Positions 33,601 through 64,000 of a DNA stretch of 64,000 bases are shown in pieces. The DNA lies in the NCBI GenBank assembly GCA_030407315.1, contig JALQPE010000143.1:40163-104162 (forward strand). Reading direction: 5' to 3'. A model generated the notes under the pieces. That model did no database searches. It was given only the letters and a program-made list of their open reading frames with translations, and was not told the origin of the DNA. The DNA is from Asparagopsis taxiformis (lineage: Eukaryota; Rhodophyta; Florideophyceae; Bonnemaisoniales; Bonnemaisoniaceae). Position 1 is the stretch's first letter. Each line of letters begins with the position of its first letter. Made by a program: the position numbers and the translations under genes.

Positions 33601-36077
33601 TGTTTCGAGATGCTTCTCTCTTGTGGTCCGAGCTATTGCTGCCATCTGGGGAACTTGTCTTTTCTAGCGATAACCCAGATTCAAGCAAAAGTGTTGATCT
33701 GAAAGGCAATCTGAACGACTCTGGTCAGACTTTATTGAGAGAAATAGGAAGAATCGTACAAAACACTTTGGAAAAATCCATACCGAGTGCCTTAGATGCA
33801 TTTATACATCGAAACGGAGAAGCCCAAAATGACGACAATGATAATTCGGGGTGTATGAAAACACCTTCGCAAAGATTTGCAAAAGTTTCAGGGGTCCAGA
33901 GCTCATCTGAACTGGATATTCAAGAACCTATAGTCCCGAAACTCGATGGAGATCACCACCAAAGACTATCGACGCACATCGATAGCATGGGCTTCTCTAA
34001 CTACAAAAGATCTCATATATATCTGAGGAGAATGCTCCAGGATGGAAAGGCGAATTTCAAAAGCTTGGGCCAGATGCGTGCTATCTCGTGTGCGATGGAT
34101 GCTAAGACAGACGCTATTGCAGTTTTACCAACTGGTGGTGGGAAGTCGATCATTTATATGCTACCTGCATTTATGTCTGATGGAAATACTACGAACATAG
34201 TAATTGTTCCCTTAGTGGCTTTGGTGCAGGACCTGATACGTCGCTGTGCATCTTTTGGTATCAAAGCAGGTGAATGGAGCTCGAGACACGATCCTTCCGT
34301 GAAACTGTTGTTTGTTGCAGTCGAACATGTTGGAAGTTTCGATTACAGTACATTGATCGGAGAATGGTCAATCTCAGGTCGTTTGAAGACGATTTTCGTT
34401 GAGGAAGCACATGTTACTGGACTGTGGAGAACGTTCCGAGAACCACTGAGGAATTTGGAATTCACAATATGCCCAGCAAACAAACCAGTCCAACGAGTCC
34501 TCATGAGCGCCACGATACCTCCCGAAATTGAGTCGAAAATCTGTGAGATTCACGGTGTGGAGAAGTTCATTACCATCCGTTCTCCTACGATCCGGAAAAA
34601 CCTTTCTTACAACGTCTATCGACATAAGCAGAGTAGGTTCTGCTCAGCAAAACAGTCTTTATTGAAGCTCACAGTCGGAACTATTGAGAACGAGCTCAAG
34701 AAGATTTCGGATAACTTTCCGTCGCCAATATCGACTCGGAAAAGACAAATTATAGTGTACTGCCCGACAAGGGCTCTGGTTGAAAGCTTGAGTGAGTCAA
34801 TTTCAAGGGTTCGAGGACAAGATGCTTGGAGCAGTGCAGTAGATGTGCTGAAGTACCACGCTGGCATGTCCATTGATGAACGGGATGCTTCTTTCTCGAA
34901 GTGGACTGTAGAGCTCAAGAGCTCCTCGGAAGAAACTGGTACTCAGTTAATGATAGCTACCTGTGCATTCGGTATGGGTGTTGACTCGTCCGATGTGCGC
35001 TGCGTAGTTCATGTTGGAACTTGCGAAAGCCTTCTTCAGTACGTACAAGAATCTGGGAGGGCAGGGAGAGATGGAAATACAGCCAGATGCGTTCTGATTT
35101 ACTGTGAAAAGATGTCTCGAGAAATGAGAGAGGCGCTGCAAAGCAAGAAACCGGAACTGGAACAACAAGATTCAGAGAAGGTGGTGGACTCTATCAACTC
35201 ATCAACATTGAGTATTTTCGACGTTGAAGAGGAATTGGAGATGTTTCATTCCTGGGCTAAAAATCATGATAGCTGCAGAAAGCAAGCTCTATTTCTCCGC
35301 ATGGATGGTTTCACCAGTGAACCATGCTGGATGATGGGAAAAGATACGTCTTCTTGGTGTGACAACTGTGTGCAGTACAACAGTCTCATCGAGACTGAGG
35401 GGTGTATTGCTAGCTTGTACAATTCTTCAGATCCCCCTTTGTCTCTGCCTGAGAATGGAATTTCAGCGGAAACTAAGCACAACCACCGCGAAAACACAAT
35501 TCTTCGGGGAAATATTCATCGTGCTCGAGAGGATTTCCGACGGCGATGTTTACATTTGCAAGAGCATTGCGTTGCTTGCATTGTTTCAAGCGGATCCTGG
35601 CATCGAAAAGAAGAACAGTGTAAACGGATTGCGAAACCTGGTTGTTATCGGTGCCTTCTATGGGGACATGGAGCGTCTCAATGCCCGACTTTGTCGACTG
35701 AGTCACTAGAAGAAGAGATGAAGCAAAACAGAAAATGCAATGTTTACTGCTTTGCTTGTGGTCTCAACAGCGTTGGCGGAGAGGCACTTCATGAGGGGAA
35801 TGAGTTTGGTTCCCGCAAGAGATGCCCTCTCCTACCATCCATTCAGCTTTGCCTTGGTTATCTCGACAAAATATATTCTATGAAGGACGGGAGAGGGAGT
35901 GATGCATTGAGCGACTTTCTTAGCCTTCATCCTATCGAAGCTGTTCAGTACGACAGATCCAGGTCAGCAGAGCGGCACAATTTACAAAAACAATTTTTCA
36001 AGTGGCTTACGTCTCCAGACGGAAGTAACAGCTCTATTAATCTCATGAATGTGATTAACAATCTGGTTGAGGTGTGA
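30642..36077 (+). CDS. Zinc finger / tyrosine-recombinase-like / RecQ helicase fusion, telomere-linked-helicase type (copy 1)
   Basis: 1811 residues, no intron. N-terminal C2H2-like fingers lie at C33/C38/H54/H59 and starting at C139/C142. A tyrosine-recombinase-like domain follows: GGGPARATEI with Arg793 (as GxRxSEL in XerD), YRHY with Arg915, and GHTNETSDRVYG, where His961 and Tyr970 are nine residues apart as in Xer/Cre. The His of the usual HxxR box is replaced by Ala. Then comes a RecQ-type SF2 helicase: Walker A PTGGGKS (Lys1168), motif II EEAH (1254-1257, Asp replaced by Glu), SATIPP, CAFGMGVD and QESGRAGRDG. A RecQ-type zinc region (CRKQ...WCDNC) and a CCHC knuckle CYRCLLWGHGASQC end it. 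Fungal subtelomeric TLH proteins combine similar parts. Role in end maintenance or mobility is inferred. Confidence 0.85.
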   Translation: MDIESQHGAESVSKSRTMSLNEKLQSFYFDDNCGYIICAKHFIGIQSITALRTHCRNKHDFSLDGCTTKEIGAFLLGRCSQYETLEAAVLQGSVNGDLLPRAFGGSQENPLHKKYRDAPLQDEILGVVDGLEVMAGLKCPDCLFHHSESNQIFNHMQKEHKHTAEAARDAIRRLSLVPVQSFVKLGRHVRYFPVLVRDGTRSWERWVSIQNQLRSKGVQVETMSQNDKKHLEKLIEGVAEFMSPAGGLGLPSSTASITNYSEEDDKRSKNFIVKLLKFDEVLSEAGFPELSLVPIHLVLSAAEARRNTDAVVVASCSGAEDQVKRDLTVYMNHAKRAWHTSSHHVQRAIEVSSGPGHAKHFQPLTTMNSVQRYADEIARLILFILRCFCQGREEEQAQLDKHNFFSGFQWNGSSLQLAPDIVMASELYFLSLQERFPTKYQGQEDHSDVVPEPSAKKKRSSEYDSRCFRARSHSRHCEPLSALHYLLCKLLLVDIEHTNSVKPLIIRQFTALRSIRNNTVNNRRCFKNAEDLSHMYASLLYISSCICLLELCRDEIPFLSHDLCQITELYISGEHSLQENPREKMTIKKVKDVLSVEKNTAAGFLRHSLSCCMAVMKNTPSSIRFINCSIHDKCGVVQGKEISLDQLKRFLLVTLQDIESLLYKTAMLDMTDPPGFDNRILTIVDDFTQSSQGHWFLSHTVSSEWSAQMQVRLLEHIWRNDALREKWFIRGQSAACKSRDEFVQIDCTQSQTPDERDGVSLSRVTALQWLKSCANLQESLLCIAHILGGGPARATEIATYQLRNSHDSPRNIFCVQGELFIQSVYNKTDAMKNAQRPIVRVLNRQISKLFFRYFVLVRPLESFLVSILFGNDKGVAHNTHLFVAEGTPFSSSKIISIFQRALSGHQINISFAEYRHYQCAMSRRYLSCPRVRLIASVGAKEDFRNLDENYPDLPIHLQAGHTNETSDRVYGVMGTKSGELMYEQVALFRDASLLWSELLLPSGELVFSSDNPDSSKSVDLKGNLNDSGQTLLREIGRIVQNTLEKSIPSALDAFIHRNGEAQNDDNDNSGCMKTPSQRFAKVSGVQSSSELDIQEPIVPKLDGDHHQRLSTHIDSMGFSNYKRSHIYLRRMLQDGKANFKSLGQMRAISCAMDAKTDAIAVLPTGGGKSIIYMLPAFMSDGNTTNIVIVPLVALVQDLIRRCASFGIKAGEWSSRHDPSVKLLFVAVEHVGSFDYSTLIGEWSISGRLKTIFVEEAHVTGLWRTFREPLRNLEFTICPANKPVQRVLMSATIPPEIESKICEIHGVEKFITIRSPTIRKNLSYNVYRHKQSRFCSAKQSLLKLTVGTIENELKKISDNFPSPISTRKRQIIVYCPTRALVESLSESISRVRGQDAWSSAVDVLKYHAGMSIDERDASFSKWTVELKSSSEETGTQLMIATCAFGMGVDSSDVRCVVHVGTCESLLQYVQESGRAGRDGNTARCVLIYCEKMSREMREALQSKKPELEQQDSEKVVDSINSSTLSIFDVEEELEMFHSWAKNHDSCRKQALFLRMDGFTSEPCWMMGKDTSSWCDNCVQYNSLIETEGCIASLYNSSDPPLSLPENGISAETKHNHRENTILRGNIHRAREDFRRRCLHLQEHCVACIVSSGSWHRKEEQCKRIAKPGCYRCLLWGHGASQCPTLSTESLEEEMKQNRKCNVYCFACGLNSVGGEALHEGNEFGSRKRCPLLPSIQLCLGYLDKIYSMKDGRGSDALSDFLSLHPIEAVQYDRSRSAERHNLQKQFFKWLTSPDGSNSSINLMNVINNLVEV

Positions 36078-43907: not shown

Positions 43908-44412
43908 TTCAGGTGATGATTCCTAAATTTAGGTTCATTAGAAAAAATCAAATTTTCGTACGAAAATTCCAGGTGTGAAAAATCATGGATATTCTTGAAA
44001 TGGTCTTTCTTGGGGAAGAAAACCGGGCCAAATTGAAGTGTAGTGTTTTTAGTATGAAATTTGCTTGAGACCGTAGTTTGGCACCGTAAATGAAATGTTT
44101 TGCTTGTCATACTTTCTCGTAGGAGTGGTTTAAATTCTGGGTATCTCTTTATACGAGGCTGAAATGAGCTCTCGAGCACGTCCCAGATTGACTGTCTCTC
44201 ATATGCTCCAAATAAAGAGAAGTGATCGCTCTGCTATGGGAGAAAGTTGAACTGAAGTGATTTTGTTTCATCAGGATGTATTTGGTACGTTTGGCTAGTT
44301 AATTACGGGAAGATAGTTTGGTACTGTACATCTGTGAGAAGGGACTCTAAATTGGTGATTTCGGTTCAGATCGCCTCACATTCTCCTGTAGTTTGAGCAA
44401 GTATAACATGTT
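43908..44412. other. Intergenic, upstream of helicase-fusion gene 2
   Basis: No gene is supported. The minus-strand frame running through 43,673-44,179 is an out-of-frame reading of the transposase 5' end. The promoter of the gene at 44,413 should be here. Confidence 0.4.
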
Positions 44413-47400
44413 ATGTCCAGCCTTTTAATCACATCTAGAGCCTTTTCGGTCTCTTCATTATTGTCTGACCTGAATACGAAAGCAGTAATGAGCGGTTCCA
44501 GACCTATCGATTGTCATGAACATGACTACATCATTCTTGACAATGTTTGCGAAATAACTATATGCAAGCTGCATAGGAGGGGTTTCACAAACATCCATTC
44601 TCTCCGGGCACATCTCCGTGAAAAACATGGCTGTGAGAAAGAATGCATTCCATTGATTCGAGAGAAGTTGTGTCGCGATTATGCCACTCTCCAGGGACGA
44701 GGAGAAGACGGAAATGGTGATCTATCAGGCGAGCGTTATGGGATGGGCGGAGCTAACCAATCAAGAGAAAACGATGAACATCATCCTATTCGTTCCCTGG
44801 ACTATCCAGTATGCCTAGGTGGGAAGAAGGTTCTGACAACAATCGCTCGGAAGTATAGGAATGAGCTACCTGACGGTCTGGAAAGAAGTGAAAGACTCCC
44901 GAAAATTCCATTTCTTCCAGTCTGCACTGGTTTCCAATGTCCGTACTGCGCTTTCTGTGCAGTTCTCGAGGCCTCATTTGTTTCTCACATCAAGGCAATG
45001 CATGGAAATACTACAGAGAAAAGTAAAACAATATTTCAAAATGCATCAGTTCTGGAATTACAAACAATTGGCCTAGGGAGGGCAGCTGTGTACTTTCCAG
45101 TAGGCGATACGGCAATCCTGGCGCAAAGCGCTTCCGCTTCCGATCAGCAATCCTCTGGAGTGCATTTCCAGGAACAGCTCGAACTTCCAAAAAAGACCCT
45201 CAACGAACTATTCAAGACTCGCATTCTATCTCTACACCCTGCATCAAGAAGTCTCCAGGGATCCAGCAGCTCGTCCGAGGGCGATCCGCCCCTCTCTCAT
45301 ATTTCAGGAAGGGAGAAAAATTTGTTCCTCAAACTATGCCATTTTGAATATATCCTCGAGGAGGCTGGTTTTGACAACATATCGAAAGCCCCAATTGAAT
45401 ATGTGTCACTGCAAATCTCGGATGTGGACTCAAATCTGAGAGACTTCATTCCTCGTAATGATCCAGCACCATCCCGATACTATGAGAAATATGTTTTGAA
45501 ACACGTAGAGTGGTACTTACGAAAGACTTCAGAACTTGTCGGTAACTCACCGCCATTTTTGCTGCGCATTGTGAAGCCGAACTCATGTAACGAGCCGGGA
45601 AAGAAGAGAGTTTTTACTGCCCTGACTACTCCTGCATCATACCGCAATTATTCTAGACATATCTGTCGTCTTGTCCTTTTTCTTTTGCGACTTTGGGAAG
45701 CTTCAATGATAGAAGAGCAGGAAAGCTCCGAAGCTAAATGCTTTGCAAGCATCATGAATGGTATAGGAAGGGATCAAATATCCTGTGCAGGAGGGTATGG
45801 CATGCAGTGGCAAGTAATTTGCAATTCCGAACGCGATTCCCCCGATGTCGACAATGCTGGAGAACAGCACCCTTTTCAAAGCAAGGAACGTTGGCGGCTC
45901 GACCGAAAATGGGAAAAGCTTGACATAGACTTGCACATGCTTCTCAGAAACGTTCTCCTTTATTCTCGAGATGACACAACTTCGGCTAGCCCTTTTCTTA
46001 TTCGGCGATTCTGCGCTCTTGTCAGTATTCATGAAGAACCAAGATCATGCATAAGAACATTCAAGGGGGCGAAAGATCTATCGCAACTCTTTGCTGCGTT
46101 ACAGTACGCCACCAGCCTCGTTGGTCTCATGGAGCTCAGGAATTCGGACACTTTCTTCCGGAAAGAACTATTACCATCGAGATTGGAATCTGTTGATCTC
46201 TCCAAAAGCTCACTTCTGCCGCTGCATGAAGATTATGAACCAATTTCACAGTCTTCTATAGAGGCAAAACTGTCAACGAACAGAAATACTTCTATTGCCT
46301 ACATCAGAGACTTCCTGGACAAGAGTATGGGAATTCTCAAACACGACACAGCTCATGTTCGCTACATGGCTTGCTCCATTCACCCTGACTGTGGGTTGAT
46401 TGACGGTCGAGAGCTATCTCTCTCTCATTTAGCTTTGGCAGTCCAAAATTGGAAGGAATCATGCATGTCTGACATCAGAAAATCTCTTCTTCTTGGAATG
46501 GAGATCCCTGAGTCATTCTTCGAGAAGATAGGCCAGCTGCATGACAACTTTATGCAAGACTTGAATGGTTTCAATTTTTCATCTGTTGGGAAGCAAGCAG
46601 AATGGGCAAAAGAACAAGCAGGGCTACTTTTGGATCATATTATGCAATCTGAATTTCACTCATCTGCATGGCTGACTCCACAGCCCACAATTTCTTCCTG
46701 TGATATCGCATCGAAAGATACAGCGAAGATACCATCTATTGAAATGAGAAGAGGTATAGATGGTGATGACAGTGTAGATCGAAGTTCAGCAGACGGGTTA
46801 GGCAATTTTATACAGAAAGAAGAGGCAGCTCAATGGCTCAAGAAAGTTCAGAAGCTCCAGAATGGACTTCTTGCATTGATCCATGTCGTGGGTGGTGGGA
46901 CGGCCCGAGCTACCGAGATTTCTACTTACCAATGCGAGAATGGATTCGACTCTATTCGAAATGTATACGTGAACCAAGGAGAAGTTATCATCATTTGCAG
47001 GTACAACAAAACGCAAGCCATGACAAGGAAGGACAAAATTATTGCAAGGGTACTCGACGAAGAAACATCCAAGATAATTTTAATCTATCTCATACTTATC
47101 AAGCCTTTTGAGGTGATGCTAGTAGAGGCTATTCATGGTGAGAGCGAAGCTAAGATCCATGCAAGATACCTCTTTGTTGAAAATGGTATACCCCATGGAG
47201 AAACTCGCATTCGAGCCTCAATTCAGTCAACCTTTTCATCCTCCTCGATACCGCTCAATTTCATACAGTATCGACACTACCAAAGTGCTATGTCAGCTAG
47301 GTTTCTCTCGCCAACTTTTGTGAGGCTTTTGTACGAATGCTCAGAGGGTGCGGAGGAATTCCAGGGATCGGAGGAATACCATCCTTCTCTTGTTGAAACT

Positions 47401-49983
47401 ATGAATGGGCAATCAGGACATTCTACATGGACTGCTAATAGAGTATACGCAACTGGTGCGCATACGGTACGAGGTCTCGCTTCTCAGCAGCTCTCTGCTT
47501 TTCGAGATGCTTCTCGATCCTGGCAACGTCTGATTGCAATTGCGAATAGTACTGATAGGCAAGACAAGCAAAGAGAAAAGGCACCAGAAATGTCAATTGT
47601 TTCTCCCAATGTCGATAATGAAGCCGTTTCTCATGGGGCATCTGGCTCTGAAACAGCCAGTATGGTCAAAGAAATCATTTCTAGAGAACTGAAAAGAAGT
47701 CTGGGAAGCTTCTTCAGTCTCAGTAACCCGCTTTTCCAAACTTGTGAAGCTTCACTCGGTTCAAAGGTTAATGGATCAGGAAACAAAACTCTTCCTGCTA
47801 CTAATCGACAACCATCACAACCAAATGAATCTGTGAAAAGAGCAAGAATATTGGAGAGGCAGGATGACCTTGAAGACCTGAAGAGACTACTCCCAAGTTT
47901 GCGGGCCATGCACAGGAATGAATTTGCACAGTTCCGGAGCATTACACAAATGCAAGCGGTCTCTGCAGCGCTGGAAAGGAGAGAAGACCTTATCGTGGTC
48001 ATGCCCACGGGCTCCGGCAAGTCAGAAATATTCTTCCTTGCTTCATTTATTGAAGGCCCTAAGATGGTAACGATTGTTGTAGTTCCTCTCAAAGCACTTA
48101 TGGAGAACTTGAAGGCCCGCTGCGCTGCTTATGGCTTATGTGTTGCATCCTGGCATGAGAGAGAAATGGAGGGAGTTCAGATTGTGGTAATCTCTGTGGA
48201 ACATGTCGGATATCCTGAATATTGTGTCTTCGTTAGTGAGCTCTGCAACTCAAGGAGGCTCTCACGAATTGTTGTCGATGAAGCTCATCTAACAGCTCTA
48301 TGGTCCTCATTCCGTGAACCTTTGCGTAGTCTCCATCAGACTTTGTGCCCTTCTTCTATTCCCATTCAGAAGATACTTCTCAGCGCTACAATTCCTCCTT
48401 GTCAAGAACCGCTTGTTGCTACATCCCACGGAATGGATCATTATGTCGTTCTACGTTGCCCAACACCTCGCCAAAATCTCAGTTACAATGTTTACAAAGT
48501 TCCAAGTGAGAGGTTTGTCAGTTCTCTGACCACTATCCTCAAATCTGTTGTGCGAATAGCATTACAAGAGCTAGAAATGATCAAACCTGCTGACCAAACA
48601 GGAAAACTGATTCTCAGTCGAATGATAATTTTCTGTCCAACTCGGGACTTGGTGGAGAAGGTCTTCGAGCTTATGAAAGATCTTGACGACAACAGAATTA
48701 AATCAGTGAACAAATATCATGGAGGAATCGAAAATAGTGAGAGAATATCCGAGCATAAGGAGTGGAGCCTCCAAGCCGATGGATTAGTACCGGAGAGAAC
48801 TACAGTGAGGATCATGGTGGCAACATGTGCCTTTGGAACTGGACTGGATACTCCTCAAGTCAAAAGCGTCATTCATGCCGGATATGCCCGGAGTATACTT
48901 GAGTACGTTCAAGAGAGTGGTAGGGCTGGAAGGGAAGGTATATCTGCTCGATGTGTTCTCGTTTATAATAGGAGATTTGCACTCTCTCAGGCCCATGTTG
49001 TGAAAGGGGCACCAGATAAACTGAGTGTTCTCGCGGCAGAGCCCAGCTTCTCCTCAAGGCTCTCTGGAAGCATATGGAATGATTCAGAAAAACTCCTATA
49101 CAGGTTCATGTCATGGGCTGAGCATGAGTCCATCTGCCGCCGTCAGGCTCTTTTCCATGAGATGGACGGCATCAATCCCAATCCCTGTCCATTCTCAGGT
49201 GCCGAACGAGCTTCATGGTGTGACAATTGTGCAAACCAAATATCGGAAGGTTCACCCGGCCTCTCAAATATGTTTGAGGAATCTGATGTAATTCCGATAA
49301 GCACCGAATCTTCTGAGTTACCTCCAATTGTTCCATCTGACAGAAGTGGACGAAATATGAATTTTGTTGCTGAATTAGAACCACGTGTACTTTCAACGCA
49401 ACACAATTTTCAGGCAAGAAACACATTCGCAGAGAGCAGTTCTACGGTGATGCATCGCGCAAAGGAAATATGTTCACGTCTTATCGGCAAATGTATTCTT
49501 TGCCTTGCGATGCAGCAAGGGTCACACGTTGTTTCGCCATCAATCAAGCCACCTTGTGTCTCCTGGAGATGTCTCCGCTGTTTCCAGAAAGGGCATGGAT
49601 ATATAGCATGTCCAGTATTCTCTTCAAAGGGATGTGTTGGGGAAAAGACTGAGAGTGGCAGTTGTTGTTACGCTTGTGGGATGAATACGCTAAACGGAGT
49701 AGAGATGCATGAAAGGTGCGAGTATGGATCACGCCTCAGATGTCCATGGTATTCTGGACTCCAGCTCTGCATTTTATATTTGCAAAAAGCACTTGAGGAC
49801 CCAGGAAAGCTCGAAGAACTCAGAAAAGATTTCAGCGAGGATTATGAGATTCTATTGAGCTCCGTCCAGAACCAAAGAAGCTCTGCTGCCATGTACAAAT
49901 GGTTGGTCTCCCTGGACAGCAAATGTATGGCTCTAAACATCATGAACGTTCTTCCAGCAATTGCGAAGCAGCTTGACCTATGA
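44413..49983 (+). CDS. Zinc finger / tyrosine-recombinase-like / RecQ helicase fusion, telomere-linked-helicase type (copy 2)
   Basis: 1856 residues, no intron. Met25 or Met27 may be the true start, since copy 1 has nothing matching the first 25 residues. The domain order is as in copy 1: C2H2-like fingers (second one CPYCAFCAV...H...H), recombinase-like GGGTARATEI with Arg832, YRHY with Arg954, and QSGHSTWTANRVYA with His1003 and Tyr1012 again nine apart. The helicase has Walker A PTGSGKS (Lys1203), a canonical DEAH (1289-1292), SATIPP, CAFGTGLD and QESGRAGREG. C-terminal WCDNC and CLRCFQKGHGYIAC are followed by a Cys/His-rich end. Similarity to copy 1 is clear along the whole length but the two are well diverged, so the duplication is old. 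Both frames are intact, which argues for selection. Catalysis by the recombinase domain is unproven. Confidence 0.87.
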   Translation: MSSLLITSRAFSVSSLLSDLNTKAVMSGSRPIDCHEHDYIILDNVCEITICKLHRRGFTNIHSLRAHLREKHGCEKECIPLIREKLCRDYATLQGRGEDGNGDLSGERYGMGGANQSRENDEHHPIRSLDYPVCLGGKKVLTTIARKYRNELPDGLERSERLPKIPFLPVCTGFQCPYCAFCAVLEASFVSHIKAMHGNTTEKSKTIFQNASVLELQTIGLGRAAVYFPVGDTAILAQSASASDQQSSGVHFQEQLELPKKTLNELFKTRILSLHPASRSLQGSSSSSEGDPPLSHISGREKNLFLKLCHFEYILEEAGFDNISKAPIEYVSLQISDVDSNLRDFIPRNDPAPSRYYEKYVLKHVEWYLRKTSELVGNSPPFLLRIVKPNSCNEPGKKRVFTALTTPASYRNYSRHICRLVLFLLRLWEASMIEEQESSEAKCFASIMNGIGRDQISCAGGYGMQWQVICNSERDSPDVDNAGEQHPFQSKERWRLDRKWEKLDIDLHMLLRNVLLYSRDDTTSASPFLIRRFCALVSIHEEPRSCIRTFKGAKDLSQLFAALQYATSLVGLMELRNSDTFFRKELLPSRLESVDLSKSSLLPLHEDYEPISQSSIEAKLSTNRNTSIAYIRDFLDKSMGILKHDTAHVRYMACSIHPDCGLIDGRELSLSHLALAVQNWKESCMSDIRKSLLLGMEIPESFFEKIGQLHDNFMQDLNGFNFSSVGKQAEWAKEQAGLLLDHIMQSEFHSSAWLTPQPTISSCDIASKDTAKIPSIEMRRGIDGDDSVDRSSADGLGNFIQKEEAAQWLKKVQKLQNGLLALIHVVGGGTARATEISTYQCENGFDSIRNVYVNQGEVIIICRYNKTQAMTRKDKIIARVLDEETSKIILIYLILIKPFEVMLVEAIHGESEAKIHARYLFVENGIPHGETRIRASIQSTFSSSSIPLNFIQYRHYQSAMSARFLSPTFVRLLYECSEGAEEFQGSEEYHPSLVETMNGQSGHSTWTANRVYATGAHTVRGLASQQLSAFRDASRSWQRLIAIANSTDRQDKQREKAPEMSIVSPNVDNEAVSHGASGSETASMVKEIISRELKRSLGSFFSLSNPLFQTCEASLGSKVNGSGNKTLPATNRQPSQPNESVKRARILERQDDLEDLKRLLPSLRAMHRNEFAQFRSITQMQAVSAALERREDLIVVMPTGSGKSEIFFLASFIEGPKMVTIVVVPLKALMENLKARCAAYGLCVASWHEREMEGVQIVVISVEHVGYPEYCVFVSELCNSRRLSRIVVDEAHLTALWSSFREPLRSLHQTLCPSSIPIQKILLSATIPPCQEPLVATSHGMDHYVVLRCPTPRQNLSYNVYKVPSERFVSSLTTILKSVVRIALQELEMIKPADQTGKLILSRMIIFCPTRDLVEKVFELMKDLDDNRIKSVNKYHGGIENSERISEHKEWSLQADGLVPERTTVRIMVATCAFGTGLDTPQVKSVIHAGYARSILEYVQESGRAGREGISARCVLVYNRRFALSQAHVVKGAPDKLSVLAAEPSFSSRLSGSIWNDSEKLLYRFMSWAEHESICRRQALFHEMDGINPNPCPFSGAERASWCDNCANQISEGSPGLSNMFEESDVIPISTESSELPPIVPSDRSGRNMNFVAELEPRVLSTQHNFQARNTFAESSSTVMHRAKEICSRLIGKCILCLAMQQGSHVVSPSIKPPCVSWRCLRCFQKGHGYIACPVFSSKGCVGEKTESGSCCYACGMNTLNGVEMHERCEYGSRLRCPWYSGLQLCILYLQKALEDPGKLEELRKDFSEDYEILLSSVQNQRSSAAMYKWLVSLDSKCMALNIMNVLPAIAKQLDL

Positions 49984-55772: not shown

Positions 55773-56426
55773 TATCATATTCCTCGACGTTTTCAAGTCC
55801 ATTCGCCACACCTACAGTTCCCACCAGGCCAGATTTGCCACGGGTCCCATTGGTTCAAGCGTCTGGCCCGGTCCATCAGCCAGCTCCGCGCCATGGTATG
55901 AGAAATATTACGCCGTTCGGCTGTAAGTCCGACAACCCCAACCAGAATTCCGACGTCGGACTTACCGTCCAGCGCCCTCTCATTAGTGCTTCAAGTCGCC
56001 ACCTCTGCACAACGTGTACATGCTCCCGCTAGCTCTCCAGTGCCACTGCCAAACGTGTACTGTTGCAGTCACAGCACAATGCTCCGAGTACACGTGTGGT
56101 ACTGCAGCCACGGTAGTACATGTCGCGGATTAGCTGTAGCCTACAGGCTGGCACACATGTCCAGGCGCCCACTCTGAAGCACGTGTGCAACGTAGTACAT
56201 GAACCATAGACAACTGCGCGATGTACACAGCCAATGTTCCGACCACACGTATGCCATGTCCACACCTCATCCACAGTTCATGCATGTGCGTTGTGTACAG
56301 CACAATGTACCTCTACTCCGACCTCTTTTCTGTAAGGGACTCATACTCGACCTCTGATCTAAACAATATCTCTGCAAATAGATCTCAAAAAGATCCACCC
56401 CTGCGATCTCTCTCCCACGAGACCGC
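55773..56426. other. Spacer with ACGTGT-rich field
   Basis: No gene. It contains GTAAGTCCGAC and GTCGGACTTAC near 55,923-55,965. Frequent ACGTGT, GTACAC and CACGTGT words lie between about 56,005 and 56,300, as in the spacer before repeat D copy 1 but without long sequence identity to it. Confidence 0.5.
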
Positions 56427-56775
56427 GGCCACCAGCATCTCTTCCGGGAGAGGACGTTTCGGACAGGACGAGCACACAACACAACGAAATCACGTAACCA
56501 TGGAAGGGTTGCTATGAGTCACCTTCACCTAGATGTAGGCAGCCTCCAGGATTTACTGTCCCAAAGCCCCCCAAATCAATTTTTATAGTGGTAGAAACCA
56601 ACCCACTGCTCCCGGAAGCGCTTCAAGCATTAGGACGGTGCGGAGGCAGCATGGGATGATCAGTCCCACAACCACCTCCTCAATTATATAAAAATAAATT
56701 TTCAAATTTTGGCGAGACTCGAACCGGGGCCCTCTCATTCTTGAAGGGATAATTACCCAGATGAGCTATTCTTTC
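56427..56775 (-). repeat. Repeat D, copy 3 (short, with a different tRNA-like head)
   Basis: Shares the ACCAGCATCTCTTCCGGGAG to AATTATATAAAAA part of repeat D with internal differences. On the minus strand it is headed at about 56775-56700 by a second tRNA-like stretch with A-box TAGCTCATCTGG and B-box GGTTCGAGTCTC. This head differs from that of copy 1 in the anticodon-arm region. Confidence 0.65.
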
Positions 56776-57342
56776 TATTTCGGTGCTGGTACTGTTGGGA
56801 CAGAGTATATATATTGACAGAGCGAGGACCCCTGCCGTTATGCTGACATAGGATGCCGTCTGAACAACTTATAACCAGGCAATAATGCTTCTACTAATGG
56901 TGATCGCATTCACAAGAACACTGGTTCAAGAACCACTGAACAGGGATTGAACTGGCACCTCGACCATCATCTCGTCTAGGCAGCCCGTTGTTTGAAAATG
57001 GGAAAAGTATAACAAATGTTGTCCGCACAAACAGGCACAGGGGCGGGGCGAGAGCCCAGACCCACACATAAAGGTTGCAGTACACTAAAACAATATCATA
57101 TAAGGGACGGAAGTGTATTCGTTCACAGGAGTAGGGCAGACTTTCTGCTGGTGCGTTTAAAGAAGAACTGCGTTTTAATGTGCGGAACACAGTGTGATTA
57201 TTCAGACTAGACTTTCGGGGGATAACAGAACTGCCATCGCTGACACTATATCGGCATGTAGGTATGTGCCTTGAAGGCAGTGCTCCCATTGCACGTTTTT
57301 AGAGCAGGAAGCAGTAGTGATGGTCTCCACTGTTGAACACTG
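56776..57342. other. Intergenic, nothing recognised
   Basis: No frame of useful length and no repeat. It ends at the first base of the truncated family-A LTR. Confidence 0.4.
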
Positions 57343-57687
57343 TGTAGTATACGTGGCAATTCCGAAATTGCAAATATTTACGATTTCCGCGGAATTCGAA
57401 TTTCGGCGGACACGACCGGCGACAGCAATGCACGAACATTGCTGGCGCATGCGCGCGCGCAACCGGCACACGTGTGCAACGAACGTATTGGCAACGGCCA
57501 ACGGACCAACGGGTCCCTACGTGCGACCCACAAGGTCCTTTCCCATTCGGGGACGTTACGAGCAGTGTTTACGCTGTAAAGCGATGCCATCGTGGCTATA
57601 TAGGTATTGGCATCGTGCCGGGAGGGAAAGGGGACAACTAACGATCGGGCAACGTGCTCTAGTCCACGATTGACTTCTACGTTACGT
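57343..57687 (+). mobile_element. LTR, family A, copy 4, truncated by telomeric repeat
   Basis: Starts TGTAGTATACGTGG and follows copies 1-3 closely for 345 bp to GACTTCTACGTTACGT. There the other copies continue for about 330 bp more and this one switches abruptly to ATTTTTTAGGGGATTAGGGG. The missing half is not found distal to the telomeric tract. Confidence 0.93.
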
Positions 57688-57783
57688 ATTTTTTAGGGGA
57701 TTAGGGGATTTTTTAGGGGATTTTTAGGGGGATTAGGGGATTTTTTTAGGGGATTAGGGGATTTTTAGGGGATTTAGGGGATT
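57688..57783 (+). repeat. Interstitial telomeric tract
   Basis: About 96 bp of irregular (A)T2-7AGGGG(G)A units, G-rich on the plus strand, the same unit and strand as the terminal array at 63,564-64,000. It joins the cut LTR directly to the Penelope-like element, whose repeat starts within the last AGGGGATT unit. Confidence 0.95.
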
Positions 57784-58118
57784 GTTAGTGAAAGCCGATT
57801 GCTCGACCTGGGTGCTGAGCGCGCGGTGACCGTTATTCGCAGTGAAGAGCGTTGTTTTCGCTAAAGAGTAGTCTGATCGCCCAGTCTAGAGTGAAGAGAA
57901 CGTTTCGCCATTTACAATGGCTTCATCAGCTCTTACCTCTGAGGAGGAAACTACTTTTCCTATGCTACTCTTATATTCTGACTTGTGGTCTCGAATTGGC
58001 AATTCGAGGGCATCGATGTACACTGTACATCTTCAGTGCGGCGGCGGCGGTGAATTCAGCCCTAGATGGTCTTTCACAAATTTTCCAGAATTTCCAGAAA
58101 CCGTTTGTGAACATTGCT
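57776..58118 (-). repeat. Terminal direct repeat (pLTR) of the Penelope-like element, proximal
   Basis: 343 bp, repeated 3226 bp further right. It contains the hammerhead-like motif at 57888-57941. Its first eight bases (AGGGGATT) are indistinguishable from a telomeric unit. Confidence 0.93.
57888..57941 (-). ncRNA. Hammerhead-ribozyme-like motif, copy 1
   Basis: On the minus (coding) strand: core box CUGAUGA at 57929-57923; one extra A; a perfect 6-bp stem II, GCCAUU/AAUGGC, closed by GUA (57921-57907); core box GAAA at 57906-57903; a two-base-pair palindromic stem III (ACGU); then U at 57899 as the cleavage position (GUU). Stem I pairs AAGAG before CUGAUGA with CUCUU right after the cleavage site and extends with bulges. 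A very short stem III is typical of type I motifs that work as dimers. The extra A after CUGAUGA departs from the consensus. Activity is not shown. Confidence 0.65.
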
Positions 58119-58347
58119 GTGGCCATTCGAGTTGTAACTGGTTTTCAGGAGATGAATTTTGGGCAATTTTCTCAGGGCAACGGCTTTTCGATCAAGCACT
58201 GCCATTGGTAGTTGGAGTGAAACTATCCATCCTGAGATCATCAGCTTCCAATATCTTCCTCTCACCGTGTGATTTGTATGTGTAGTTCGTAATTCCGCAC
58301 TACTTTTTCCTCGCTAATTTTTTTGTGCAAGGGTTTCCACGCTCTCA

Positions 58348-60180
58348 TTATTCTTCCTGTGCATTCTGGTCTCTTTCACGTATGCATTTGTATTTCCAAT
58401 GCTGCTTCGCTGATATGAGACTTTTTCCAATCTTCTCAAAGTCTTTGAACACAATCATCGGTGGATATGATTCAAGAAGGATAATTTGGCGGTTGCTGAA
58501 TTTGTTCAGCTTTTTTGTGATGAGTAGGGGTCGAAGTGGGTATTTCGCAATCCATCTACTCAAATAATATTTGAGCAAGGGATGGAAAGCGGTAAATACC
58601 ATCTCTTTGTCTGGTTTCTTCGACACTCGCTGTTCATAGATGTATTTCTGTCGGTCATCATATTTGATATTTTTCCAGTGGCGCTGGATTATTGCAGCGG
58701 GATATCCTCTTGCGCGGAGGCCTTTGAAAATGATATTCATCGCTGCCAGCCACTCTGACTTACTTGAACTGTTTCTCATACACCGGATTGCCTCTCCCTT
58801 AATTATTGCAGTTTTGTGCTGGATAGGGTGACCGCTGTTGAACAGCAGATAGAGGAACCGGTTTGTAGGTTTGAAGAACACCTTTGTGTCTAATTTTTTC
58901 TCCAGTTTGTATCGGAATCCTTTGTAGATTTCGATGTCCAGGTACCGTGCGTTATATTCACAAATATTATGAGTGAGGCGGAGAGAGGATGCTCTGTTGA
59001 GCTCTCCTATAATTTTTTCCCCAATTTCCTTTGTCGTCGTGATCAAGAAGCCATCATCTATGAAACGGCTTTGAAATAGGATGTCTGGATGTGACAATAC
59101 CTCTTTGAATTTGTAATACAAGTAGAGGTTCGCGAACGGCGGAGCCACTTGTGTTCCGGTGGCTGTGCCTGTTATCTGTACGTAGATGCTGTTGTTAGCA
59201 CTGACGTAATTATTGAACATTATAAGCTGTAGTATCTTGGTCCAAAAATTGTTGGAACTGCGCATACAGATAAGGTTTCTCCGTAATGTTCTTATCGCGT
59301 CTCTGATGTCTATGCTTGGATATAGCTGTTCGACCTCGTATGTGACGAAGACAAATTCATTGTCTTCTCTGAAGTCTTCTATTTGTTGTATGATTTGTCT
59401 CGAATCTCTAGCAATTTCCGAGAATTTCTCGACTTCGTTCTGTAGTACTTCTGCGAGTGCCTTGCTTAATGGTGCCAACATATACGAATGTTGTGCCGTT
59501 ATAGGGCGTGTTCCGAGCGTTGGTTTGTGCAGCTTGGGGATTATATAAAATGGTGAGGGGTCTTTCGCTTGTTCAGCGTGTGTCAGCCATTTGTTTTTTC
59601 GCCATAGTTGTATATCCCAAGTACTATTTAGAATATTCTTCAACCTGTGAAGAATTTGGCTGTGGGGAAATATGCTGACTTTCCTGAATGAAGTTGTGCT
59701 CAAGTTTGAAGATAGGAGGCTGTTGTAGTAATCTCCTCTTATTGCAACAATTCCAAAGTTCTTGTCCGCTTGTTTGATCACCACATCCATTGATTTTAAA
59801 TCTTTGATTCCTTTCTGAACTTTGTAGACGAGACTCGATGTTCTCGGCTCTCTTATTTTGTCCAGTTCCTGGAGCATAAATTTTTTCCAGGTATCCCAGT
59901 TGGTGTTTTCTGTTGTGGATAGGGAGTCAAAGTGGTACCGTAGGGTACTGTGTATTTGCGAGATGACGCCTGCTAATTTTGGTTTGAGACGATTGGTAAT
60001 CGCAAATTTGTGACCGAGGCGTAGGACTAATTTTGCTTCGGGCGAGAACCTTTCTGGTTTGATCCCGATTGGCCTGTTGTATGCTTGGAACGGGAAGGGT
60101 GTTTTCGGTTTACGCTTCCGCTCCCGCTTCCTTGTTCGCTGTTGTTTTCCTTGTGCAAAATAATTTTTTTCGTTCGTCCT
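58348..60180 (-). CDS. Penelope-like reverse transcriptase
   Basis: The conserved protein begins before the first Met of its frame (59877). Upstream codons up to about 60,164 encode a basic stretch and then RFSPEAKLVLRLGHKFAI, the typical Penelope N-terminal block. The core follows in order: VVIKQADKNFGIVAI, FYIIPKLHKPTLGTRPIT, FVTYEVEQLYPSIDI, ITGTATGTQVAPPFANLYLY, the catalytic RFIDDGF (YxDD replaced by FIDD), and LYLLFNSGHPIQHKTAI with RARGYPAAII, the thumb. After it only a basic tail occurs; no GIY-YIG nuclease. Uninterrupted from about 60,433 to 58,348, so probably functional or recently so. Expression would need a -1 frameshift from ORF1. Confidence 0.88.
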   Translation of the reverse strand, partial: RTNEKNYFAQGKQQRTRKRERKRKPKTPFPFQAYNRPIGIKPERFSPEAKLVLRLGHKFAITNRLKPKLAGVISQIHSTLRYHFDSLSTTENTNWDTWKKFMLQELDKIREPRTSSLVYKVQKGIKDLKSMDVVIKQADKNFGIVAIRGDYYNSLLSSNLSTTSFRKVSIFPHSQILHRLKNILNSTWDIQLWRKNKWLTHAEQAKDPSPFYIIPKLHKPTLGTRPITAQHSYMLAPLSKALAEVLQNEVEKFSEIARDSRQIIQQIEDFREDNEFVFVTYEVEQLYPSIDIRDAIRTLRRNLICMRSSNNFWTKILQLIMFNNYVSANNSIYVQITGTATGTQVAPPFANLYLYYKFKEVLSHPDILFQSRFIDDGFLITTTKEIGEKIIGELNRASSLRLTHNICEYNARYLDIEIYKGFRYKLEKKLDTKVFFKPTNRFLYLLFNSGHPIQHKTAIIKGEAIRCMRNSSSKSEWLAAMNIIFKGLRARGYPAAIIQRHWKNIKYDDRQKYIYEQRVSKKPDKEMVFTAFHPLLKYYLSRWIAKYPLRPLLITKKLNKFSNRQIILLESYPPMIVFKDFEKIGKSLISAKQHWKYKCIRERDQNAQEE

Positions 60181-60973
60181 TTCTTCGCTGAGGTTTGCGT
60201 TTGATTCTTGCCTTGGGTTTTCTTGCTTTGGCCGCTGCCGGTGAAGTTGTTCCTTCTTCCATCCGACATGGCCGTTTGGTTTTTTAGCTTTTTTACCTGT
60301 GCAGTAAGATTTGTCACTTGCTTCTGCAAGGTATCGATGGCTGGATCCGTTAGGGTTGTGTGCAGGGCCTGTTCTTGTTGCTTCTGCAATTTTTCTTCTT
60401 TCCTTTTGAGTGCCTTCTTCCTGTTATGAAAGTCAGCTGTACGGAACCTTTTTTCCTGCTCGGTTCTCAATTTCTTGAAGCTGTCAAAGTAGACGATTGC
60501 CAGAGCAACAGGTTGTTCGGAGTCGTCAATAATTTTTTCCTGTTGCATTTGTACAATAGTTGTGTGCATTTCTTGTCTCCACTGATTGACTTTGGCTGCA
60601 GCATCTTCTTTGAGCTTCTTGAGTTCCTCGCTACGAATGTCTTTGAGTGCATGGAGTATTGTTGTGTGAAATGTCTCCTTTGCTGCTCGCATAATATTGT
60701 CCATATTTTCCTGCCTTTCCTCTGTGACCTTGACAACCACATTTATCTTGAGGCTAGCGGGACAGTATTTTCCGATAGATGTTCTTCCAGTCTTGCGATA
60801 GCGTTCTCCTTGTTGATGATAGAGCGCTGTAGGTTACCAATTTCCTGGAGCCATATTTGTACTAGGTTATTTACCCAGTCTGGTATGTTGACATTCGGGT
60901 TGTTCGGGGTCTGCATAATTTGGTTGCTTGAATTCCCGGAACTGCGTCTGCGTTTTTCGAGTCGTGGCGGCAT
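60027..60973 (-). CDS. ORF1 of the Penelope-like element, coiled-coil and basic
   Basis: Starts at MPPRLEKRRRSSGNSS (60973) and runs 76 codons with a heptad-like NKENAIARLEEHLSEN. One frame change near 60,760 leads into a 237-codon frame (60740-60027) with long charged helices (SEELKKLKEDAAAKVNQW; KKALKRKEEKLQKQQEQAL; LQKQVTNLTAQVKKLKNQ) and a Ser/Lys/Gly-rich basic end. Such proteins bind element RNA in other retroelements; here that is inference. The frame change near 60,760 is either damage or an error, and the last 400 bases overlap the open RT frame. Confidence 0.7.
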
Positions 60974-61001
60974 CTGGCGTCTGACAAAAGTAGTCCTGGA
61001 T

Positions 61002-61344
61002 AGGGGATTGTTAGTGAAAGCCGATTCCTCGACCTGGGTGCTGAGCGCGCGGTGACCGTTATTCGCAGTGAAGAGCGTTGTTTTCGCTAAAGAGTAGTCT
61101 GATCGCCCAGTCTAGAGTGAAGAGAACGTTTCGCCATTTACAATGGCTTCATCAGCTCTTACCTCTGAGGAGGAAACTACTTTTCCTATGCTACTCTTAT
61201 ATTCTGACTTGTGGTCTCGAATTGGCAATTCGAGGGCATCGATGTACACTGTACATCTTCAGTGCGGCGGCGGCGGTGAATTCAGCCCTAGATGGTCTTT
61301 CACAAATTTTCCAGAATTTCCAGAAACCGTTTGTGAACATTGCT
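61002..61344 (-). repeat. Terminal direct repeat (pLTR) of the Penelope-like element, distal
   Basis: The copy at the 5' end of the coding strand, offset 3226 bp from the proximal copy. Its inner edge reads GGATAGGGGATTGTTAG, so one telomere-like unit separates it from the ORF1 leader. Its outer edge (TTTGTGAACATTGCT) joins directly to the duplicated NB-ARC block. Confidence 0.93.
61114..61167 (-). ncRNA. Hammerhead-ribozyme-like motif, copy 2
   Basis: Same motif as copy 1, 3226 bp away and about 140 bp upstream of the ORF1 start on the coding strand. Both core boxes, stem II and the paired part of stem I are unchanged. Two copies flanking the coding region would release a unit-length RNA if active. 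Confidence 0.65.
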
Positions 61345-63563
61345 ATACCTATTCCGATTTGAGAAATGGGCCAGAAAGACTTTATTACAGGGCCAAATAC
61401 TCTATTAAAAAAATTTTACAATTTTTGAAATCGCAGTAGAAAACGCTTGAAAGGTATAGTCGAATTATATGTGATTTGGTGCTGTTTGACGAAGAACAGT
61501 CTGATGGCATGATGTAGCGAGATAAGAGAAGAGACCGAAATGAGTTGTTTTGTAGGGTAGGAGGCTAGTACGCACCTGTCAATCTTCTTCTGAATAAGAA
61601 ATTATTTCTCTGAGAGAACCTTTGAAACGTCTCGTTTTACGTGATAGACTGTGAGATCTAGAATAGGAATGATCAAGTAAAGCACTTACTCCATCTGTTC
61701 CATCCATCCACCATCCCAATCCACAACTGACTCTCTTTCTCGCCTCTTCTCTTCACACACTAATCTAGCCATGGGGAATTGCTGCGCCATATCTAACTGC
61801 TCCAACTCCAACCATGTCTCTATCTCCAGCCCATCATCATCTCAGCAGCCTCCTCAATGTACCCACTCTGACCGTCTGATACCTCGATCTCCCGCCGAAA
61901 CTCCTGCCGAACCCCTGTCGGACCCCCTGCCGGACCTCCCGTCACATCCCCCACATCACCTGCTTCCTCTGAATCACTGATCACCCCCTTGCCCTCACAT
62001 CCGTCTCCACTCCAATCATTTCCCCCACCTACTTGCTCTCTTCCTCACGTTACAGCGATAAGAACCCCACTTCCAGCCTATCTCCCACCATCATGGGTAC
62101 CCATACTCCCCCATCCAACCAATCGCCCTCTACTGCACCCATGCCCTCTTCCTCCGTTCATCGCCATCTCCAGCAGCTGCACTCCTCTCCGATATTGCCC
62201 CACCAACATGCGGCCCGCATCACCCAGCCACCCGCCTTTCATGTTCCTCCCAATACCTGCGAGGTCCTCGACTTCTCCCGAAACTCGCGCACCCCAGAAA
62301 GCAAAGTCAAGACAGCTGTGCTATCTGAAGACCCAAACCAGAACGCCATTGCGGTGGTTGGCATGGATGTTGTAGGCAAAACGACCATGCTGCGTGCCCT
62401 CGGTAGACATGAACATGTGTGGGCCAAGTTCCGTGATGGCGTGTGGTTTGTACAACTTCAAGTTCCAAGACCAAGTTGGTCATGACGCCACTGTGCAAAC
62501 GGTGCTAGACGAGCTGGAAGAAGTTGTCGCCAAAACACTCCCAGGTTTCCTTTCCTATTTCACCTGACTCGCAGCCAAGCCCAATATGCACCTCAGATTG
62601 ATGAACATGCTGGTCGAGCATCTCGCCTGCAAGCGCTTCCTGCTAATGTTTGATGACGTGTGGGACCTAGAAGCCATTTGTACAAGCTGGTGGGTGCGGT
62701 CTGCACGGGTGTTCAAACGATGGAGGGAACCGGCTGCATGATGTTATCGTCGACAAGAAATGAGGCTATTGGGCGTGTTCCCACACATGATGTGTCGATC
62801 GGAGTGAGTGCTGAAGACTGGCGGGGAGATAGATGTGTTGATATTCTATGCTGCTACGCTGGGATCGACAGAGAGAGCATTGCCACACTTGCAGCTCGAA
62901 ATCTCGATGCGCTGGACAGCATAATTGATATGTGTGCTGGACTGCCATTGATGCTGAGTGTTGCTGGGTGTAGTTTGCAAGATGTGGTGGGGAGAGGGTC
63001 GGGTGGGTGTAGGGGGACGGAATCGAGCAATACCGGAAGAGTCTGAGGTCGAGGTCTACACAACGTGGAGTTGGGGAACGGGGGAGCAGGCATGGTGGAC
63101 TGAAGTTGGCAGTGGAGACGAGTTTATTGTCGCTGGAGAAGAACTGGAGAGGGGAGGGCATGAGAATGGGAGAAATATTCCAGCCTTTTTTTTCATTGTG
63201 CACAAGCAGCAGATGCTTCCGTTACGGGCGATTGAGAAAGTATGGGGGTGAAGGATGGGCTGTGTGGGGTGAGAATGATTTCACGGTACAGTCTTCTGTC
63301 GCTTATTAAAGATGAGTGTGGACTTGAGGTAGGAGTGGTGCTGCACGACTTAGTTCACGACATGTGTGTTGAACAGGCTGTGGGGAGCGAGGGGGTAGGA
63401 TTTTGGCACAAGAGAGTAGTTGATGGATATGGAGCATCGATTCAGACGGGCAGAAGCAGTAGAGATGGCGAAAGTAGTAGGATGAATGGAGAAAGTGGTA
63501 GTAGAGAAGTTAGATGGTGGGAAGTAGACAGCGATGACAAGTACATAGATGATAATGTAGTAC
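61343..63563 (+). repeat. Subtelomeric duplicated block, distal copy
   Basis: 2221 bp matching 26319-28472 in the same orientation. It is longer because it keeps the segment deleted from the proximal copy (around 62,886-62,970) and has a 20-bp insertion near 62,458. It is joined on the left to the Penelope-like repeat over a short shared CTATACC/GCT word and on the right to telomeric repeat at ATGTAGTAC|TTTTAGGG. Confidence 0.93.
61771..63563 (+). pseudogene. NB-ARC gene, broken and cut by the telomere (distal copy)
   Basis: Has the same MGNCCAIS start, Pro/Ser-rich linker and P-loop VVGMDVVGKTTML (about 62,360) as the proximal copy, and the same in-frame TGA after LSYF (about 62,565). Its own lesions are a 20-bp insertion after VWFVQL, which shifts the frame, and a 1-bp deletion in the kinase-2 region. 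It keeps the GLPL motif (MCAGLPLMLSVAG, about 62,930) that the proximal copy lost. The WD40 part is absent because the gene ends in telomeric repeat. Confidence 0.8.
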
Positions 63564-64000
63564 TTTTAGGGATTTTTTTAGGGGATTAGGGGATTAGGGG
63601 ATTTAGGGGATTTTTTAGGGATTAGGGATTTATTAGGGGATTAGGGGATTAGGGGATTAGGGGATTTTTTAGGGGATTTTTTTTAGGGGGATTATTAGGG
63701 GATTTTTTTAGGGGATTTAGGGGATTTTTTTAGGGGATTTTTTAGGGGATTAGGGGATTAGGGGATTAGGGGATTAGGGGATTAGGGGATTAGGGGATTA
63801 GGGGATTAGGGGATTAGGGGATTAGGGTTAGGGGATTAGGGGATTAGGGGATTAGGGGATTAGGGGATTAGGGGATTAGGGGATTAGGGGATTAGGGGAT
63901 TAGGGGATTTAGGGGATTAGGGGATTAGGGGATTTAGGGGATTAGGGGATTAGGGGATTAGGGATTAGGGGGAATTAGGGGATTAGGGGATTAGGGGATT
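63564..64000 (+). repeat. Terminal telomere-like array, unit TTAGGGGA
   Basis: 437 bp to the window edge. The first about 170 bp are irregular, with T runs of 2-8 and occasional AGGG or AGGGGG. From about 63,737 the array is nearly pure TTAGGGGA with rare variants (one GGGTTA near 63,826). The G-rich strand runs 5' to 3' to the right, the correct polarity for a right-hand chromosome end. Confidence 0.93.

Follow-up and report, generated by a model that had tools for sequence, protein, structure and literature searches.

How an element with a reverse transcriptase (RT) comes to stand with its 3' end against a telomeric array in the interior of a contig is the question raised by one end of the window, i.e., the whole 64,000-nucleotide stretch of DNA analysed here. 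We interpret it, with a probability of about 0.86, as an endonuclease-lacking, telomere-attaching Penelope-like element (PLE) that primes its reverse transcription on the G overhang. This reading was already put forward in the first-pass annotation and is supported by the genome-wide polarity of the 3' ends, as far as these are readable; the accompanying guess of a probably algal lineage is borne out by plastid rpoB, which points to a florideophyte red alga.

Layout of the locus

As first described, the interstitial telomeric array (Table 1) directly adjoins the 3' end of the antisense element. It is oriented like the terminal array (63578-64000) at the end of the window, which is also the contig end (104162), and is an old chromosome end carrying the attached element. 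The span 57688-61344, originally taken as one element, does hold a full unit, whose borders agree with those of 16 other full units on contigs C40, C997 and C2361, but it also takes in a truncated second unit. The latter lies head-to-tail with the first, and a single base differs between 57775-58118 and 61001-61344. Its truncated end is not telomere-capped but joined to a copied subtelomeric segment, which is 94-96.5% identical to positions 26321-28472 of the window.

Table 1. Features at the telomere-proximal end of the window (positions in the window)
Feature	Position	Strand	Remarks
Interstitial telomeric G-strand array	57688-57783	+	TTAGGGGA-type with variable T runs; 96 bp
Full-length PLE unit, family 1	57784-61000	-	3' end at 57784, 5' end at 61000
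Hammerhead ribozyme motif	57886-57941	-	in 3' untranslated region; core pattern
RT reading frame	58348-60423	-	691 aa stop to stop
ORF1	60027-60973	-	start codon at 60973; overlaps RT frame; frame-broken in this copy
Lone telomeric repeat	61001-61009	+	unit junction
Second unit, 5'-truncated	61010-61344	-	3' terminal 335 bp
Hammerhead motif, second copy	61112-61167	-	
Copied subtelomeric segment	61345-63570	+	NB-ARC gene fragments; joined to truncated unit
Terminal telomere	63571-64000	+	closes copied segment; contig end

Reverse transcriptase, ORF1 and the lack of a nuclease domain

The RT is of the PLE-type, TERT-related kind, with a predicted TERT-like fold. Pfam returned no RVT_1 match for the window RT; among six relatives scanned, four matched above the cut-off, one just below it and one weakly. 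Motif C (RFIDDG) is intact, while motif A carries Glu in place of the catalytic Asp (codon 59337-59335), on account of which the RT is not fully intact and cannot be called complete, as it had been. The Asp is kept in all 16 other family-1 units compared, several of them frame-broken. Judged by this substitution and its broken ORF1, the window copy is probably inactive. ORF1 encodes a predicted long-helix protein and is uninterrupted, with 315 aa, in units 3 and 4 of C40 and units 1 and 3 of C997. The RT lies in the -1 frame relative to ORF1 in families 1, 2 and 4, though not in family 3, and a search for a shared frameshift site yielded no slippery heptamer common to the families.

The reported lack of a GIY-YIG domain stands: Pfam at E <= 1 detects none in the ORF1 and RT frames of the window copy, nor was one seen in any longer copy. 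The scanned frames hold neither the C-terminal GIY-YIG nuclease of canonical Penelope and Neptune elements nor the N-terminal GIY-YIG nuclease that Naiad/Chlamys elements possess. The genome has five GIY-YIG matches, none on any contig of two RT match lists (which scored 64 of 177 and 76 of 178 candidates), and in the RT tree the 44-row clade with the families (96/90) leaves out all four GIY-YIG rows. No relatives turned up when collections of viral and prokaryote contigs were scanned.

Unit boundaries and arrays across the genome

In the 141.5-Mb assembly, 55 3' ends were read from five PLE families with RT similarities of 48-65%. The 22 outermost ends, from the five families, continue without exception into telomeric repeats of the expected polarity. 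Each of the 33 internal ends is followed by a single telomeric word (AATCCCC and a few further bases), behind which the next unit starts. In family 1, where 28 of the 29 located ends were read, 10 of 10 outermost ends and 18 of 18 one-repeat internal junctions conform to the earlier prediction that 3' ends abut telomeric repeats in one polarity. Copies in unique non-telomeric DNA, which had been named as contrary evidence, do not occur among the 3' ends read, a count that leaves aside the flanks of some other RT matches, e.g., C956, C613, C90 and C1972. Thirteen sequences reading CCCTAAC match the family-1 end word with one mismatch; they belong to an unrelated repeat (10 of the 13 read) and are not counted.

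The units measure 3.0-3.4 kb and are free of accessory genes; in the four families that were read through, they have two ORFs, which overlap. As many as 13 unit ends stand on a single contig. Wherever both boundaries of a unit were read, the unit is full length (27 of 27). The internal junctions read within a family always show the same single repeat; the length of the boundary word varies by family, from 7 nt to some 14 nt according to how A-runs are assigned. Further, on the telomere side all array ends read, across the five families, coincide with a unit boundary. The unit counts come from one assembly, in which indels and stops in several units represent possible errors or decay.

Distal units, where visible, are 5'-truncated, and several are telomere-capped (C2361, C188, C442 and, twice, C901); the distal side is not telomeric repeats in the window, C2598, C842 and C250 copies. 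On C442 two end words lie 170 bp apart, of which the outer was read, and a short unit seems to stand next to the outermost end of the array. On C901 a telomere is followed by a truncated copy of family 1 with two telomeric repeats behind it, then by some 130 bp of other DNA including a little telomeric sequence, and finally by a truncated family-4 copy and a telomere. In terms of sequence, six of the seven C250 units are identical, counting the reference unit, and units 3-5 of C40 equal units 2-5 of C997, a different contig, over 3227 bp. Motif A is arranged in blocks in C40, with TYDI in units 1, 2, 6, 7 and 8 and TYDV in units 3-5, and in C997 TYDI is confined to the telomere-side unit. Both of these arrays reach contig ends.

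Two metagenome proteins closely match the families. P0003, whose contig of 3271 bp has exactly the length of the 3130-bp unit plus 141, shares 99.7% identity with the family-4 RT; P0121 is 99% identical to the window ORF1, on a contig of 3370 bp, two above 3227 + 141. We take 141 to be the assembly k value, whereby unit plus 141 would be the length expected of a cyclic path. Only these near-identical cases are kept, because distant PLE rows share the relevant size range: the metagenome contigs of relatives in general (73 of 99 in 2.9-4.2 kb) were rejected as unit-length cycles, as 9 of 20 distant PLE rows fall there too.

Hammerhead motif

The window motif, which is predicted to be self-cutting, has the layout CUGAUGA, stem II, GAAAC GUU, stem I. 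It recurs in all five families with compensatory stem changes (covariation), 144-493 nt upstream of the unit boundary. Rfam reported no ribozyme at gathering or lax thresholds, and the motif was located by its core pattern. It had been overlooked in the first-pass annotation, as had the tandem arrays and the junctions with one repeat between units.

Proposed attachment at the G overhang

We propose that, at the unit boundary, the element RNA would carry a telomere-complementary stretch (AAUCCCC and a few more bases), with which a single-stranded G overhang ending in GGGGATT could pair. The TERT-like RT would then extend the 3' end of the overhang without a nuclease, thereby placing the 3' end of the element, on the G strand, behind the telomeric repeats. 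Copying would break off at a point on the 5' side, the new end would be capped by telomerase or end repair, and several units may come to stand in a row. The telomeric word of the RNA is deduced from the internal junctions only, because the outermost words are indistinguishable from the host telomere; the sequences likewise suggest, rather than demonstrate, the RNA-DNA pairing and the independence from a nuclease.

Source of the arrays and alternative explanations

The multi-unit arrays could derive from circular or multimeric RNA, or from later DNA exchange. The latter possibility, namely one telomere-primed insertion followed by DNA-level amplification or exchange (unequal exchange, break-induced or rolling-circle replication), is a serious contender at somewhat less than even odds. 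It would account for the frequent identity of units within one array, as on C250, for the identity of the C40 and C997 units and the TYDI/TYDV blocks, and the subtelomeres here clearly share segments. However, DNA exchange need not respect the unit boundary, at which the telomere-side array ends always fall, and it leaves the conservation of the ribozyme unexplained.

More tentatively, the hammerheads might cut array transcripts to unit RNA that closes into circles, around which the RT could roll to lay down a head-to-tail array in one event. Each RNA circle would have exactly one telomere-complementary boundary site for pairing with the G overhang. The mixed unit types within the C40 array speak against a single round of copying, and under this reading mixed arrays would call for at least two events or for subsequent exchange.

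Serial attachment of independent single elements to the previous end, with telomerase adding a little telomere between them, is unlikely to have built the arrays in general. The series of truncated family-1 and family-4 copies with telomeric stretches on C901, the closely spaced end words of C442, the two unit types within C40 and the description of Terminons as tandem or interspersed arrays would all fit it; yet it should yield varied truncations and repeat numbers, as on C901, and not the uniformly full-length bounded units with the same single repeat at the internal junctions of a family.

It is very improbable that a nuclease acting in trans, e.g., from another PLE, cuts telomeric repeats for ordinary target-primed insertion: although the assembly has five GIY-YIG stretches and the C901 family-1 copy is flanked on both sides by telomeric repeats, none of those stretches shares a contig with the RT matches of the two lists, which weakens this reading, and the window, C2598, C842 and C250 copies have sequence other than telomeric repeats on their distal sides. 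Least credible are the arrays as assembly artefacts, collapsed or expanded from a single element, for even if the C40 and C997 arrays reach contig ends and polishing can make units identical, the two metagenome contigs and the ending of arrays on telomeric repeats in five families tell against it.

Implications

With these families the range of telomere-attaching PLEs comes to include a florideophyte red alga, for which the literature searched, by titles, gave no described example. Five families in one genome follow one plan of a ribozyme motif, one telomeric word per unit and arrays anchored at telomeric repeats, and such regular arrays make the question of how these elements copy themselves testable. 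If RNA circles are indeed involved, the hammerhead of PLEs would have a function, and the circles would lengthen chromosome ends beside telomerase. The host genome has a telomerase gene; telomerase loss was rejected. Additionally, attachment of elements, capture of copied segments and a new telomere together offer a route of subtelomere growth. Telomere data for this algal group are, according to a 2020 review, mostly missing or fragmentary, and papers matching TTAGGGGA are, by title, not on telomeres; the repeat is a candidate telomere repeat for the group.

Comparison with known elements

This kind of element is already known from Athena, Coprina and Terminons, and the compact red-algal arrays are a new variant of it, placed by features. 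Coprina is a fungal endonuclease-lacking, telomere-associated PLE and, likened by description, shares such an RT with the red-algal families. Terminons and Athena of bdelloid rotifers, as described (PMC6431247, PMC3846280), attach without an endonuclease, 3' end to G-rich telomeric ends. The same accounts describe further features common to both groups: 5' truncation, a telomeric cap, head-to-tail arrays, helical, probably coiled-coil ORFs, and, close to the 3' end, a hammerhead motif together with a short telomeric stretch in reverse complement, both of which the red-algal units likewise have. In contrast, the red-algal units are not giant and lack accessory genes, as against Terminons of up to 40 kb; each of their internal boundaries has just one telomeric word, unlike the described rotifer elements; their hammerhead lies well upstream of the boundary, not adjacent to it; and their host has TTAGGGGA-type telomeres. 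Endonuclease-deficient PLEs of fungi, protists and plants are also mentioned (PMC3846280).

A Poseidon-type PLE of Anolis, as described (PMC11167929), resembles the red-algal families in its PLE RT, tandem units with pseudo-LTRs, hammerhead and a reverse transcription that begins inside the RNA, for which a multi-copy RNA was proposed. Unlike them, it has a GIY-YIG nuclease and cuts AT-rich sites, and its hammerhead was dispensable for insertion in vitro (PMC11167929). Finally, in retrozymes (PMC7761336), as in the red-algal families, tandem hammerheads would free unit-length RNA able to circularise; retrozymes are non-autonomous, whereas the red-algal elements encode their own RT.

Telomeric ends in five element families

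A reverse transcriptase (RT) search of the genome drew on 177 candidates, of which 64 were scored and listed as places; a second search, with a distant relative as query, listed 79. Copies of the Penelope-like elements (PLEs) form tandem arrays of fixed period in five families, numbered in this analysis, with between-family RT identities of 48-65%; the nuclease-less element of the window belongs to family 1. End words, i.e., boundary sequences, were searched for families 1, 2 and 4, yielding 29, 15 and 42 ends (the last including 13 on C2578 and 12 on C2579, C numbers being contigs of this assembly), of which 28, 9 and 12 were read; family 3 ends come from C188 only (4) and family 5 ends from C581 only (2). 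Among the 55 3' ends read, all 22 outermost (telomere-side) ends run into telomeric repeats (10, 2, 1, 8 and 1 in families 1-5), these being only short at two of them (C2014, C901). All 33 internal ends carry one telomeric word, then the next unit (18, 7, 3, 4 and 1). The C842 and C250 flanks are 99.96% identical and probably represent one locus; those of C997 and C2598 are 95% alike, with the telomere joined at different points.

Arrays and unit boundaries (in element orientation, in three parts) of the five families
Family	Arrays	Period	Left	Middle	Right	Remarks
1	C40, C997, C2361	~3227 bp	CACTAAC	AATCCCCTA	TCCAGG	first bases slightly different in some C40, C2361 units
2	C250, C316	3109 bp	TTTGCCC	AAATCCCCTA	TCAAAGG
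3	C188	3002 bp	TTTCAAG	AAAAAATCCCCTAA	ACAAGG
4	C2578, C2579, C442, C865	3130 bp	GAAGCCC	AATCCCC	AATCAAAAG
5	C581	~3376 bp	CTTGCCCT	AATCCCC	AACAAAAG

Outermost ends have the same element sequence as internal boundaries, followed by AATCCC(C)TAATCCCC-type repeats. Read on the G-strand, the boundary is ...GGGGATT and then element sequence, the joint to be expected if the overhang pairs with an AAUCCCC stretch of the RNA.

The chromosome end carrying the element

The right edge of the window (40163-104162 of contig C143) is the end of the contig. Since the element 3' end is repeated past the lone telomeric repeat, the locus holds a complete unit, arranged head to tail with the beginning of another.

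Features of the chromosome end
Feature	Position	Strand or orientation	Remarks
Interstitial telomeric array	57688-57783	same as terminal array	
Element 3' end	directly after 57783	minus	
RT frame of element	58348-60423	minus
Element outer limit	61000
Lone telomeric repeat	61001-61009		after element limit
Second copy of element 3' end	61010-61344		one mismatch to first copy
Terminal telomeric array	63578-64000		right end of window; mostly TTAGGGGA, T runs variable

The history that we read from this order is that one and a tenth units were attached to a telomere, that the truncated unit was then joined, through 2 nt of identity, to a duplicate of segment 26321-28472 of this contig, and that a new telomere formed at 63571. 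The segment is 2.2 kb long, contains NB-ARC gene fragments and has two like-oriented copies (26321-28472 and 61345-63570; 94-96.5% identical); its distal copy joins the truncated element on one side, ends in the new telomere on the other, and looks like a capture through break-induced copying.

The subtelomeric sequence internal to the interstitial telomere (55774-57343) is 97% identical to the distal flanks on C2598, C842 and C250, where this DNA is joined to family-1 copies at their 5' truncations; it is a shared subtelomeric module. A dispersed repeat (5097-5731, 18057-18590, 22659-23305 and 57343-57657, the last close to the interstitial telomere) is 71-74% alike to one C2598 stretch. Two uninterrupted subtelomeric ORFs (30609-36077, 1822 aa; 44407-49983, 1858 aa) have DEAD and Helicase_C domains, with weak zinc-finger matches near the N-terminus, and are, we presume, reminiscent of fungal telomere-linked RecQ helicases. 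Two similar ORFs with hydrophobic stretches, on opposite strands (9183-10967, plus; 13282-14574, minus), are perhaps receptor or channel-like; a Pfam scan of ORF 9183-10964 gave no match.

The RT frame overlaps the upstream frame, ORF1, at ~60027-60423 and has no early ATG. Passage from ORF1 to RT needs a -1 step in families 1, 2 and 4; the related protein P0015 has both parts in one 898-aa frame. P0003, an RT from public metagenome data, shares 99.7% identity with that of family 4 (C2579, C2578, C442, C865) and sits on a contig of exactly unit + 141, a size that suggests that the element also exists in cyclic or tandem form in the environment sampled.

The host

Of six matches to the RNA polymerase beta family in the assembly, that on C469 is plastid-type; three further long frames are treated as nuclear (two of these were inspected), and two fragments on C600 overlap each other. 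The set is consistent with a single plastid-bearing eukaryote. Its plastid rpoB matches metagenome rows at 100, 92 and 91% identity; the best named row is Inkyuleea mariana (89%), followed by Ahnfeltia and others (87-88%), and those of the listed names that can be placed belong to florideophyte red algae. A telomerase RNA-binding domain lies in a 1168-aa open frame, and we infer that the window contig is from the same organism as these genes.

Array anatomy

All 27 units readable between two boundaries (C40, 8; C997, 6; C250, 7; C188, 3; C2361, 2; window, 1) are full length, and wherever the distal side is visible the last unit is truncated (1018 nt on C250, 834 on C2361, 402 on C442, 335 in the window, 192 on C188). 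The terminal telomere directly caps the C2361 and C188 arrays; the C442 joint has a few odd bases, and two end words 170 bp apart on C442 are an exception to the regular plan. On C901 a truncated family-1 copy comes first, then telomeric repeats and some other DNA, next a family-4 copy, likewise truncated, and last the terminal telomere; unlike the arrays, this order looks like separate attachments.

On C250, six of seven units are identical, reference unit included. Across 3227 bp no difference separates C40 units 3-5 from C997 units 2-5, and edge units differ from them in up to 43 columns, many being indels. Two unit types, distinguished by the RT motif-A variants TYDI and TYDV, occur in blocks on C40 (TYDI in units 1, 2, 6, 7 and 8, TYDV in 3-5); on C997 TYDI is confined to the telomere-side unit. 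A whole array therefore need not stem from one template; polishing or sequencing errors may also play a part. These blocks provide a marker for the mode of array building.

A hammerhead motif upstream of the boundary

In all five families the motif runs CUGANGA, a stem-loop, GAAAC and then GUUCUC, is completed by a matching stem I, and precedes the boundary by 146, 215, 144, 315 and 493 nt (families 1-5). The alignment was built without structure, the tested structure itself being drawn from the same five sequences, and 44 of 45 cells are paired, with two-sided changes in five of nine pairs. Out of 500 shuffles, none came up to the real sequences in pairing or in covariation score; 6 did so in the count of two-sided pairs and 32 in that of pair types. 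Slid controls gave 40-61% pairing. RNAs of families 1, 2 and 4 were folded alone: in family 1, stem II and the greater part of stem I are formed, but additional pairs span the core (z -2.8); in families 2 and 4 the hammerhead is less clear (z -1.6 and -1.7). Stem III is minimal (GAAACGUU), as in described PLE hammerheads, for which cleavage as dimers is considered possible in the literature.

Attachment mechanism and source of the arrays

Three features, namely the polarity, a joining base that hardly varies and the lack of a nuclease, point to telomere-primed reverse transcription that requires no nuclease, as the literature also holds for endonuclease-deficient PLEs. If hammerheads cut a linear RNA at both ends, its telomeric word would lie only ~0.1 kb from the 5' end (family 1), so that a primer annealed at this word would yield only a short copy; a circular RNA or uncut multimer as template would allow whole units to be copied. 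An RNA circle as the source of the arrays is doubtful (probability roughly 0.3); amplification at the DNA level after a first insertion is a possibility to which we give somewhat less than even odds.

In the nuclease-bearing PLE of Anolis, mutation of the hammerhead did not abolish insertion in vitro, and unprocessed RNA was taken to be the main substrate (PMC11167929), which counts against a needed role for the ribozyme. The Terminons, telomere-attaching PLEs of bdelloid rotifers, are described as forming tandem arrays and as having hammerheads and telomeric stretches in reverse complement (PMC6431247, PMC3846280), and hence the class of mechanism is already known. These data add a regular plan, found in five families: a single word in each unit, units of full length and one truncated distal unit (distal side visible in families 1-4).
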